Source: Roseimicrobium gellanilyticum (GTDB lineage: Bacteria > Verrucomicrobiota > Verrucomicrobiia > Verrucomicrobiales > Verrucomicrobiaceae). Taken from it: 64,000 nucleotides of DNA. A program made the position numbers and the translations under genes. The notes under the pieces were generated by a model that ran no database searches, was not told the DNA's origin, and saw nothing but the letters and a program-made list of their open reading frames with translations. The DNA lies in the NCBI RefSeq assembly GCF_003315205.1, contig NZ_QNRR01000010.1, forward strand, positions 1 to 64,000. Reading direction: 5' to 3'. Below are positions 50,209-54,468 of this stretch, piece by piece. How positions within the stretch are numbered: the stretch's first letter is position 1; each line of letters opens with the position of its first letter.

Positions 50209-50901
50209 ATGCTCGATCTGATTTCCAAAGGCGGCGCCCTCGTCTGGGTGCTCCTGGGTTGCTTTGGGCTGGCCCTGGCAATCTTCGCGGAACGCATCTC
50301 GTACTACCACCGGGCTGGCATGAATGTCGGCGAATTCCTCGCCGGACTCGCCAGCCTGATTCGCAGAAAGAACTACGCCGAGGCCCTGCAGGAATGTGTG
50401 GCCACCCGCGTGCCTGCCGGACGCGTGCTGCACGCCGCCTTGCTGCGCCACCATTCGACTCGCGAGCAGCTCAAGGACATCGTGCAGGAAGCCGGACAGC
50501 TCGAGGTGCCTCGCTTGGAGCGCTACCTAAGCGTGCTGCACGGCATCGCACATGCCACGCCACTCATTGGTCTGCTGGGTACCATCCTCGGCCTCATGAA
50601 TACTTTCACCCGCCTGAACAACGAGAATGGCTATGCCACACCGGCGGAGGTGGCAAATGGGGTCTTCCTGGCGCTCATCACCTCGGCTCTCGGTCTGGTG
50701 GTGGCGATTCCCAGCTACCTTTTTTATTCCTTCCTCGCGGCCAAGGCGCGCCATCTCATGCATGACCTGGAGCGTGCTGGCATCGAAATCGTGAACATCC
50801 TTGAAGACAATCGCGAGCCTGCCCACGCTGCGACGACCGGTGGGGCGCAGATTGTGGAGTTCCGCAAAACGGACTCCGGCAGCGCGCTGAAGCGCGGCTA
50901 G
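50209..50901 (+). CDS. exbB: ExbB/TolQ/MotA-type proton channel protein
   Basis: 230 residues with three membrane segments: about 5-25 (SKGGALVWVLLGCFGLALAI), 110-135 and 155-185. The channel motifs are present: HATPLIGLLGTILGLMNTF and VFLALITSALGLVVAIPSYL, corresponding to the two Thr-containing helices of ExbB (the second has Ser where many have Thr). ExbB pentamers sit with ExbD in the inner membrane and turn the proton gradient into movement for TonB- or Tol-type systems. An unknown protein and an ExbD gene follow, then a TonB-like gene, so this is the motor part of a small transport cluster. Confidence 0.9.
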   Translation: MLDLISKGGALVWVLLGCFGLALAIFAERISYYHRAGMNVGEFLAGLASLIRRKNYAEALQECVATRVPAGRVLHAALLRHHSTREQLKDIVQEAGQLEVPRLERYLSVLHGIAHATPLIGLLGTILGLMNTFTRLNNENGYATPAEVANGVFLALITSALGLVVAIPSYLFYSFLAAKARHLMHDLERAGIEIVNILEDNREPAHAATTGGAQIVEFRKTDSGSALKRG

Positions 50902-50952
50902 AGAGACCTGTCAGTGAAGGGTGGAGGCGACAGATGTCCCTCCTCAATAGCC

Positions 50953-51384
50953 ATGACACTCTGGACCATTCTCAAGAGGACATGGTACGTCGTGGTCTAC
51001 AACGGCAGGTTCTCCTTCAAACCGGCAGAAAAGGCTTTGCTGGATGCCGTGATAGCGAAGCTGCCAGAGGACGACGCCAGCGCACTTCAGGCGCAATTGC
51101 GGTCGATGAACTGTCTTCAGCGCTTCTTTAAACGGCAGTTGGTGTGTTTCCGTTTCAGACGCTACAAAGGGCCGCTTCTCAGCAAGAAAGACAGTCCATG
51201 CTGTGTGGCGCTTGTAACCGTCCGGATGGACGGCGAAAGCGTGTTCGTCAATTTGGTTTCCATGCACGGGTTGCTCAGGATCCTCTATATTCCGGCGCCA
51301 CTCAGGGCAGATGCTTCCCTGGACGTGGCAGATGTCGTCGTGTTTCCCTTGCATCATTCCCCACAGGGAAAGGAGCAGGGCTGA
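50953..51384 (+). CDS. Unknown protein within the exbB-exbD cluster
   Basis: 143 residues from ATG 50953. No membrane helix or signal is evident beyond a moderately hydrophobic start (WTILKRTWYVVVYNGRF). Basic residues are frequent in the middle (RFFKRQLVCFRFRRYKG), and the second half reads VALVTVRMDGESVFVNLVSM and LLRILYIPAPL, strand-like alternation. No family is recognised. It lies 51 bases after exbB and 139 before exbD on the same strand, an unusual insertion between motor subunits. Codon use resembles the neighbours only partly, so it may be a later insertion. Confidence 0.5.
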   Translation: MTLWTILKRTWYVVVYNGRFSFKPAEKALLDAVIAKLPEDDASALQAQLRSMNCLQRFFKRQLVCFRFRRYKGPLLSKKDSPCCVALVTVRMDGESVFVNLVSMHGLLRILYIPAPLRADASLDVADVVVFPLHHSPQGKEQG

Positions 51385-51523: not shown

Positions 51524-51928
51524 ATGAAGCTCGTCAGTCATCTGCCGAAGCCGGGCTTCTGGATGTATCTGGGGCCTGTGCTCAATGTGCTGCTGCTCCT
51601 GCTGCTCTTTTTCCTCTTGGGCTCGAACTTCGTGATCCAGAGTGGCGTGGCGGTGAAGCTGCCGGAGAGCGCTTCGCGGCTCAATGGCTTCGAGAGGGCG
51701 CAGGTGGTGACCTTGCCCTCGGGGAATGACTCTTCCATGTACTTCAATGGTCGGCCGGTGACCTACGAGGAACTGGGGCGCCAGCTTGAGTTGAAGAAGA
51801 CCGAGGGACGCCGGCTCATCATCCACGCGGATGGGGGAACGCCGCTGGGAGGGCGTTTCCAGCAGGTGAGCAATCTCGCACTACGCATGGGCTACGAGGT
51901 GGCCTTCGCTACCCAGCCGGCGAGGTAA
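51524..51928 (+). CDS. exbD: ExbD/TolR-type protein with Asn in place of the conserved Asp
   Basis: 134 residues with one membrane helix (about 15-36, LGPVLNVLLLLLLFFLLGS) and a periplasmic domain beginning FVIQSGVAVKLPESAS, the normal ExbD layout. The C-terminal part RRLIIHADGGTPLGGRFQQV corresponds to the usual LxIxADxxxxxG region. In ExbD, TolR and MotB the helix carries an Asp near its start (P-x-x-D-V) that takes up protons; here the same position is Asn 21 (codon AAT). The call to the family is firm. Whether the complex can still use protons is doubtful, unless another residue substitutes. It follows the unknown gene and is 32 bases before the TonB-like gene. Confidence 0.87.
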   Translation: MKLVSHLPKPGFWMYLGPVLNVLLLLLLFFLLGSNFVIQSGVAVKLPESASRLNGFERAQVVTLPSGNDSSMYFNGRPVTYEELGRQLELKKTEGRRLIIHADGGTPLGGRFQQVSNLALRMGYEVAFATQPAR

Positions 51929-51960: not shown

Positions 51961-52746
51961 ATGCCTGCTGAAACCTCCAAGGAATCACCGCTCATCTTCC
52001 ACTGGCCCCGGCCGTTGGAGCAGGGGAAGCGGCTGATCTTCTGGATCGGCGTGGTCGCGTTGGGATTGGCCGGCTTCTTTTACGTTTTCCAGGTCGTGTA
52101 TCCGCAGTCGCAGCGCAGCACGCCCATTCCGCATCAGGTGCTGCTGCTGGATCCTTCGGATCCCATTGCGCGGGCGATTCTGAACAAGGTGCAGGATCGC
52201 GATTTCCTCGTGCTGCCGAGCGATGATCCCGGTGCAAACGCGGCAAGGCTTGAGGACCATGCGCCGGTATTCCACCCGAGCTATGAAGGACATCAGCTCG
52301 GCTTGCAGGATCTTCCCCACAAACCCTTCACCGTGCCGCCCGCCCGCCTCTTGAAGGTGGATGAACCGGTGCTGCCGCCCTTGGACCTGAGCGGACTGAA
52401 GAGACCTGTGGAAGACGCGATGCCGACCTCGAAGGAGTCTGCACCTCGTCTGGTGGTGAAGCTCACCGGCGCGCTGGCGACACGGAAGATGATACACCCA
52501 CCCGACCTCGCCGGCCTTGCTCCTGCGGATCCTGGCGCGCATCACATCCAGCTCGGTGTGGATGCGCATGGGCGCGTCTGGTTTGCGCTTCCTCTTCGGG
52601 AGTCGGAGAACCTGGTGGCATCCGCAGAGCTGACCGAACGGCTCACCCGGACACGCTTCGAGCCGGTGACGGTGAAGAAGGAGTCTGCAGAGACGCCGAC
52701 GTGGGGCGTGGCGACCTTTGCCTGGGAGACTCCGGTTGGTCCGTGA
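51961..52746 (+). CDS. TonB-like energy-transducing protein with divergent C-terminal domain
   Basis: 261 residues from ATG 51961. A short cytoplasmic N-terminus with WPRPLEQGKR is followed by one membrane helix (about 24-46, LIFWIGVVALGLAGFFYVFQ) and a periplasmic linker of about 130 residues, moderately rich in Pro (VPPARLLKVDEPVLPPLDLS). Residues 193-259 resemble a TonB C-terminal domain: LGVDAHGRVWFALPL, then ELTERLTRTRFEPVTV and TWGVATFAWE match the order VDxxGxV ... LxxxxxxRFEP ... GxxxFxW. The domain is more divergent than typical TonB. Together with ExbB and ExbD it suggests a TonB-like outer-membrane energising system. No TonB-dependent receptor is in the window. Confidence 0.65.
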   Translation: MPAETSKESPLIFHWPRPLEQGKRLIFWIGVVALGLAGFFYVFQVVYPQSQRSTPIPHQVLLLDPSDPIARAILNKVQDRDFLVLPSDDPGANAARLEDHAPVFHPSYEGHQLGLQDLPHKPFTVPPARLLKVDEPVLPPLDLSGLKRPVEDAMPTSKESAPRLVVKLTGALATRKMIHPPDLAGLAPADPGAHHIQLGVDAHGRVWFALPLRESENLVASAELTERLTRTRFEPVTVKKESAETPTWGVATFAWETPVGP

Positions 52747-53031: not shown

Positions 53032-54468
53032 TCAGGGATTCGGCACCGCCGAGGCAGTGGATTGCGCTTTCGCTGGCACTGCCTCCTGTGTCCACGGTGG
53101 CGGTGTGGATGTTTTGCGCGTCCGATAGCCGTCACCCCAGATGGCCACAGCAACCAATGCCACGGTGAGGATGATCAGCGCGAGGAACAGCGTGAGTGGA
53201 CGGTTTCCGTCGGGTTTGTCCGCGTGATCCACCGGAGCCATGGGCGCCACGCTGCGATGATACACCAATGCAGGCTGGCGCGTGGGGTCCGGGGCGGCGC
53301 TCGTCATGCCCGGTCGTTGTGCCGGGGCGCTGGTGACTTCGTCATCGGGATGGACCTTGGGCGGTTCTCCCTGTCTCCCGGGAGCATGCAGCGGCGAGCG
53401 AGACGGAGCAGCGCTCGAAGCTGCGGCTGGCGAGACCGAGGGCGCAGCCAGGGGAGCGCTGCTCTGCTGGGGCTGCTGCGTGGAGAGCATCCAGTCCGCA
53501 AAGGACAGCGGCTCGTGTGACTTGCGTGATCCACCGAGGGTTGGCACCTTCGAGGCGCCATCGTCAAACACAAGACCTGACGCTGCTGTCTCTCCCCTAA
53601 GCATCGCCTCTGCCCGTAGAGACTCCAGGATGGAGGTCACACTTTCAGGCGCAGCAGACAGGGTGAGCTGCAGCGGAGCTGAGGTGGCGGGATACGGCGT
53701 CCAATGAATGCCTCTTGATATTGACAGCGTCCTCTCGGGCAGTGATACGACGCCTGACATCGGCACTACGATCTCCTGGGCCATTTGAGAAGGCGGAGGT
53801 GGCGCTTCCCTGCTGGAGCCAAACCAGATGATATTCTCCCCCTGCTCCATGCAGATCCGGGTGCTCCCCTCAGTCTCCGGCTCCCAGATGAGTGGACCAA
53901 GAGGAAAACCAAACTCTGCGGAAGACTCTGCCAGGACTGCGGGGAGTTGCACCGGCAGCATCTGATGGCCCACAATCACATTGCCCTCATCATCGAGCAG
54001 GGGAAAGCTCGTGGCATGGGATGGCAGGGCCATCGCCGCGGGGAAGGAAATGACCGGCGGCAGGCGCTTCTCGTTGATGAACACCGCGTCCGCATCCACC
54101 CAGTCGCGAGTTTCCTCGTCCTCCTCATCCAGCTCGCTCTCGTCCAGAATTTGGAACCTGGATGGGCTGCCGAAGAGGGGACACGGTGGAGGGGTGGCAG
54201 TCAGCACCTGGTCTTGGTCTTCACTTGCGGCGCCGTCATCCCTTGTTTTCTTCATCAGGCTCAAGCTCGCGGCTGCGGCGGCGGCCAAACCTGCAGCCAG
54301 AGGCAGTGGGCTCTTATTGCGCAGGGCAAGTCCCGCGAGCATCGCGCTGGCAGCGAGGGCTGCTCCGCCCAAGGCCACGGATGCACCCGTGGATGGGGGT
54401 TCGCTCGGTGCTGGGAGCATGCAGTTGATACCTAAACGCAGGGTAAGCTGGTTTTTAGCGCCTGTCAT
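53032..54468 (-). CDS. Large low-complexity membrane protein, function unknown
   Basis: 478 residues from ATG 54468; ATG 54420 is an alternative. The N-terminal part has two hydrophobic Ala-rich segments (about 30-48 and 55-72), the middle is polar with an acidic run (ESELDEEDEETRDWVDAD), and about 330-420 is Pro/Ser/Ala-rich. A final membrane helix (about 427-447, PLTLFLALIILTVALVAVAI) is followed by a short charged tail. WTPYPATSAPLQLTLSAAPE and PLIWEPETEGSTR may be beta strands. No family is recognised. It is convergent with the zinc-ribbon gene (gap 12 bases) and lies 33 bases upstream of the end of the PSCyt gene on the same strand. Confidence 0.55.
   Translation of the reverse strand: MTGAKNQLTLRLGINCMLPAPSEPPSTGASVALGGAALAASAMLAGLALRNKSPLPLAAGLAAAAAASLSLMKKTRDDGAASEDQDQVLTATPPPCPLFGSPSRFQILDESELDEEDEETRDWVDADAVFINEKRLPPVISFPAAMALPSHATSFPLLDDEGNVIVGHQMLPVQLPAVLAESSAEFGFPLGPLIWEPETEGSTRICMEQGENIIWFGSSREAPPPPSQMAQEIVVPMSGVVSLPERTLSISRGIHWTPYPATSAPLQLTLSAAPESVTSILESLRAEAMLRGETAASGLVFDDGASKVPTLGGSRKSHEPLSFADWMLSTQQPQQSSAPLAAPSVSPAAASSAAPSRSPLHAPGRQGEPPKVHPDDEVTSAPAQRPGMTSAAPDPTRQPALVYHRSVAPMAPVDHADKPDGNRPLTLFLALIILTVALVAVAIWGDGYRTRKTSTPPPWTQEAVPAKAQSTASAVPNP

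Follow-up and report, generated by a model that had tools for sequence, protein, structure and literature searches.

The ExbD protein encoded at positions 51524-51928 (+ strand) of a 64,000-nucleotide stretch of Roseimicrobium gellanilyticum DNA (the window) has an asparagine, Asn21, in place of the aspartate that carries protons in proteins of this type. The gene belongs to an exbB-exbD-tonB-like operon that keeps the ExbD, ExbB and TonB folds but, to judge from the sequences, fails two features that define a proton-driven system: the membrane Asp and the His of the SHLS motif. The Asn-bearing complex probably works without proton power, and we hold, with slightly more confidence than doubt, that the products of the operon form a Ton-type complex which is no longer coupled to the proton motive force and has been retained for some other use.

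The open reading frame is intact and encodes 134 amino acids with a single membrane helix, LGPVLNVLLLLLLFFLLG. A first-pass annotation had suggested, from an alignment by eye, that Asn21 (codon AAT, 51584-51586, + strand) stands at the essential Asp of ExbD and TolR in an otherwise ExbD-like protein. Phmmer alignment to solved structures confirmed this: Asn21 falls at Asp25 in E. coli ExbD (6tyi_Y, VTPFIDVMLVLLIIF) and at Asp23 in TolR (9ddm_Y). A true Asp at another position of the helix was ruled out by the ExbD/TolR alignment, and the helix contains no other acidic residue; the membrane-helix Asp expected of a proton-driven ExbD, TolR or MotB subunit is absent. The rest of the protein does resemble ExbD: it matches the Pfam family PF02472 with 49.3 bits (cut-off 25.4), and its periplasmic domain is predicted to adopt the ExbD/TolR fold (mean pLDDT 80). 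Foldseek matched this model to ExbD in ranks 1-5 and to TolR in rank 7, with a probability of 1.00 but an E-value of ~0.01. The stretch QSGVAVKLPES is similar to the swapped strand. Against the curated exbD/tolR equivalog models, the protein scores far under the mark (28 vs 123 bits).

An exbD orthologue was found in 63 of the 68 genomes of the window's family (f1). Among the 61 orthologues read, position 21 is Asn in 58 and Thr in three, and the two nearest families that carry the ordinary version (f3 and f6, of the same order) have Asp in all 37. Since Asn is found independently in 58 of 61 orthologues, a read error or frame fault at this codon is excluded. The alignment with other verrucomicrobial ExbDs that the first-pass annotation had proposed thus recovers the Asn form as a conserved subgroup, which supports its suggestion that such a motor should not run on protons by the known mechanism. 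Asn also occupies the position in f5, in ten members of f4 (two others have Gly) and in 13 members of f2 (five others have Asp), and further cases of Ser, Cys, Ala and Gly occur among class- and phylum-level relatives. The loci of the Asn group include those of the named Verrucomicrobiaceae Prosthecobacter, Brevifollis and Verrucomicrobium. The other ExbDs read, seven in the window genome and 21 paralogues from relatives, all have Asp (28/28), so the loss is specific to the exbB-exbD-tonB-like operon, and a lineage-wide change of all ExbDs is ruled out.

Two phylum-level loci, L218 and L219 (genomes G251 and G369; f26, g157), form a separate ExbD group in which Ala or Gly replaces the Asp, accompanied in one genome by an ExbB with Met at its second pore site. 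This group is an independent loss of Asp outside the window's order. Another independent loss is probably represented by L284, from a Spartobacteria MAG, which combines an Asn ExbD (PFINVLFLVIVFF) with a TonB-like neighbor in which SxxxH is intact.

Between the window genome (G000) and its sister species (G001), dN/dS is 0.035 for exbD, 0.040 for exbB and 0.086 for the tonB-like gene, and other pairs of Asn-bearing exbD genes give values of 0.007-0.125. Few columns of the helix are as conserved within the family as the Asn column, which has an entropy of 0.28 bits. Purifying selection of this strength (dN/dS ~0.04) means that the gene is neither a product of read error nor a decaying copy, and the earlier suggestion that the protein may be inactive is thereby excluded in the sense of decay. 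On a quick tree of 134 ExbB+ExbD rows, from which the trait columns were excluded (SH-aLRT support only, several long branches), the state at this position switches between Asp and not-Asp nine times, at least six of which are forced by the starred branches, although the exact numbers are soft. By parsimony, Asn arose three times in the order; Gly, Ser, Cys and Ala have additional origins, and f2 may have seen two returns from Asn to Asp. As read from these sequences, Asp has been lost repeatedly in Verrucomicrobiota, to Asn, Thr, Gly, Ala, Ser or Cys.

The exbB/tolQ/motA-type pentamer subunit of the operon (50209-50901, + strand) is a protein of 230 amino acids that was identified by its match to PF01618 (101.5 bits; cut-off 22.9), by TolQ/ExbB structure alignment and by group-specific columns. 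Its pore residues Thr125 and Ser159 (Thr148/Thr181-like) are present. Residue 19 in TM1 is Phe in the window and Ser in Asp-type relatives, and is taken to correspond to E. coli Ser34 from the TM1 pattern, with profile alignments stopping short of TM1. The third gene (51961-52746, + strand) encodes 261 amino acids and has no Pfam match, its sequence having diverged beyond the reach of every Pfam TonB model. It is called TonB-like from its predicted C-terminal fold. In the predicted structure, a single TM helix (residues 21-42) is joined by a disordered linker to a C-terminal domain (~161-260), for which the first 17 Foldseek matches and the first 23 VIA-align matches are all TonB or TolA C-terminal domains, with VIA-align Z-scores of up to 6.7, a middling value for a predicted model. 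A strand resembling the D-box, the ExbD-binding strand of TonB, reads PHQVLLLDP; it is similar to QPISVTMVTP of E. coli (sequence compared: QPISVTMVTPAD) and is conserved in both clades. In the TM helix, VALGL occupies the SxxxH position, and the SHLS motif (Ser-x3-His) is absent.

Between exbB and exbD lies a genus-specific reading frame of 156 amino acids (50914-51384, + strand) that among the loci searched is found only in the sister species, at 61% identity. It has no Pfam match, evolves fast (dN/dS 0.33) and is probably not part of the complex. The neighbors of the operon encode a glutamine amidotransferase, a TPR-AAA protein, a product with no Pfam match and a PSD1/PSCyt protein; neither tolB nor pal is among them. 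The tonB-like gene is adjoined by a reading frame of 478 residues (53032-54468, - strand) with no Pfam match.

In E. coli, TonB Ser16 and His20 touch ExbB Ser34 and Trp38 and, via these, Pro190, a network suspected of opening the proton channel (PMC12215075, PMC12905483). The first-pass annotation did not include the loss of this network from the partner proteins, nor the repeated loss of Asp in the phylum. The TM His of the TonB-like protein is present in 37 of 37 cases in f3 and f6, usually as SxxxH, and in 0 of 57 in the window's family, where the column holds Met, Leu, Ile, Phe, Val or Ala and the Ser of the SHLS motif is usually gone as well. Likewise, the TM1 Ser of ExbB is found in 36/36 in f3 and f6 versus 0/56 in the window's family, which has Leu, Met or Phe instead. 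In f2, His is lost in 18 of 18 and the ExbB Ser in 17 of 18, with either Asp or Asn in ExbD; the five f2 loci L202, L207, L210, L212 and L213 combine an Asp ExbD with a TonB-like partner lacking the TM His. Asp has gone from f4 and from some class-level lineages that still have both His and Ser. Two changes each suffice for His and Ser on the tree, and the data do not reject their having been lost once, in the ancestor shared by f1, f2 and f5 (p-AU 0.32). The tree has too few events for an independent-pairs test of whether Asp and His were lost together repeatedly. Since the loss of His and Ser amounts to one or two events, the joint pattern has little statistical power: network loss strongly describes the window's lineage but does not amount to a statistically independent correlation.

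The ExbB pore itself has a mixed history. Seven changes to Ala or Met are counted at the second pore site (Thr181-type), and each falls on a non-Asp branch; such branches account for ~44% of the branch length (crude P 0.003). In 11 non-Asp relatives the site is now Ala or Met. Every Asn member read retains the first pore Thr (GLLGT; Thr125), and most retain the second site, so the pore has not simply been abandoned. The Glu176-type position of ExbB is mostly Gln in the window's family. A column comparison found no new acid in the window's lineage, whether in the core of the ExbD helix or in ExbB TM2/TM3, which leaves unsupported the earlier idea that another residue replaces the Asp.

The Asn ExbDs of f4 (L043, L050, L055, L160-L164 and L167) have an Asp12 near the cytoplasmic end of the helix, RPDFLYLAPLLN, which might be a partial stand-in for the lost acid. 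The tonB-like gene lies away from exbBD in f4 (L043, L160-L164, L167) and in g2 (L013, L014, L059). Its loss from these groups was ruled out: the gene has moved, and each of the 13 genomes checked has one copy of it, also where it lies outside the operon. The relocated gene keeps its His in f4, where ExbD has Asn, and lacks it in g2.

In E. coli Ton, the same trio is found: a pentamer-type ExbB, a single-helix ExbD with the ExbD/TolR periplasmic fold, and a protein with a TonB-type C-terminal fold and a D-box-like strand after its TM helix. Unlike E. coli, however, the window system has Asn for Asp25 in ExbD, and its partners lack TonB Ser16/His20 and the ExbB Ser34-type residue. Tol-Pal (TolQ-TolR-TolA) shares this architecture; the window ExbB scores best with TolQ (83.7 bits, under the TolQ cut-off), and the C-terminal domain of the TonB-like protein, as a predicted model, also matches TolA (1tol, Z 6.7). 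The window locus differs from Tol-Pal in lacking TolB/Pal neighbors, the proton Asp and the SHLS His. In the GldL-GldM gliding and secretion motor, another superfamily member, the critical acid comes from the outer-ring subunit and not from the inner dimer (PMC8986121). However, GldL TM2 has a conserved Glu, and the window ExbB has gained no membrane acid. The closest parallel to the substitution itself is provided by Asp-to-Asn mutants of MotB, in which the same change at the same place mimics the protonated state, as in the structure of C. jejuni MotB D22N (PMC9022066, PMC9389320). Those mutants were made in the laboratory, whereas the Asn of the window is natural and conserved and comes with matching changes in its partners.

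Under the uncoupled reading, the complex would be made up of an ExbB pentamer, an ExbD pair and a TonB-like tether. Asn21 would hold the pair of ExbD helices as if the Asp were permanently protonated, and the complex would therefore not cycle with protons. It may instead be an inner-membrane anchor, either static or moving passively: an envelope tether or scaffold, in which the periplasmic ExbD dimer would hold the TonB-like protein and so join the inner membrane, the cell wall and an outer-membrane partner. The periplasmic parts that remain are the ExbD fold, the D-box-like strand and the TonB C-terminal fold. Such a complex would work alongside the ordinary proton-driven Ton systems of the cell, as the genome encodes, elsewhere, the seven Asp ExbDs, ~8 TonB-dependent transporters and at least two TonB_C proteins. 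Several observations count against uncoupling. The first pore Thr persists in all Asn members read and the second site in most of them; the Asn is tightly conserved and not free to vary, and could thus have an active role; the loss of His and Ser comes down to one or two events; and the losses do not always go together, as Asp is lost and His stays in f4, and five f2 genomes have Asp and no His. A broader proposal, to which we give a little less than even weight, is that the operon represents a naturally evolved class of 5:2 "motor" whose proton parts (the ExbD Asp, the TonB His, the ExbB contact Ser and the pore Ser/Thr) were shed stepwise, with several losses of Asp in Verrucomicrobiota, to leave a trans-envelope device independent of the proton motive force.

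The strict conservation of the Asn, almost as strict as would be expected of Asp, could also reflect a motor that is still driven by ions in the absence of a carboxylate. Asn21 and the Thr/Ser ring of ExbB would then bind a hydrated ion or pass protons via water, with lower or different coupling. The invariance of ExbB Thr125 in Asn members is consistent with this, as is the presence in f2 of Asp and Asn members in similar surroundings, where parsimony favors some changes from Asn to Asp. We nevertheless consider it unlikely: no characterized 5:2 motor is known to do without a membrane acid (PMC12905483, PMC8986121), TonB His and ExbB Ser, which make the gating contacts, are gone too, and the second pore site erodes in non-Asp lineages only. 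The acid might, alternatively, be supplied by another subunit, the Asn ExbD sharing its ExbB ring with a canonical Asp ExbD to form a one-acid or damped motor. The 5:2 motors do hold two B-type helices, paired unlike TolR-like genes are known in the phylum (PMC12204202), and seven Asp ExbDs are available in the genome. However, these paralogues are just ~22-33% identical to the Asn ExbD, no second exbD is found in the operon at any locus read, and the Asp-type orthologous operons also have a single exbD, so the ancestor was probably a homodimer. Such mixing, which would leave the loss of TonB His and ExbB Ser unexplained, seems very unlikely.

It is also conceivable, but improbable, that the uncoupled complex acts as a brake on the active Ton systems, tuning them by taking up outer-membrane partners or ExbD/TonB docking sites. 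Retention of the D-box-like strand and the TonB-type C-terminal domain would suit a competitor of this kind in a genome with ~8 TonB-dependent transporters and further Ton systems, although there is no evidence that the C-terminal domain, whose sequence is beyond any Pfam TonB model, binds a TonB box. Finally, the operon might be a redundant Ton copy that is in the course of being lost. Five of the 68 family genomes lack an exbD match, including three with a completeness of 85% or more, and in two of the Thr members the second pore residue is gone too. This scenario is hardly credible, however, given a dN/dS of ~0.04, a gene kept in 63 of 68 genomes and the conservation of the Asn itself.

In the open-access literature that was searched, there was no report of a natural, conserved ExbD family without the Asp, a residue described as "absolutely required" in ExbD (PMC12905483). 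The same requirement is described for every studied member of the motor superfamily, and here is a natural, conserved lineage without it. With its matching changes in the contact network, the Asn lineage offers a built-in separation of the structural and energetic roles of ExbB-ExbD-TonB. It bears on the question of whether the network of TonB His and ExbB Ser serves proton gating only, and on whether such complexes have work to do that needs no energy. The Asp-bearing sister lineages provide ready comparisons, and cultured relatives exist.
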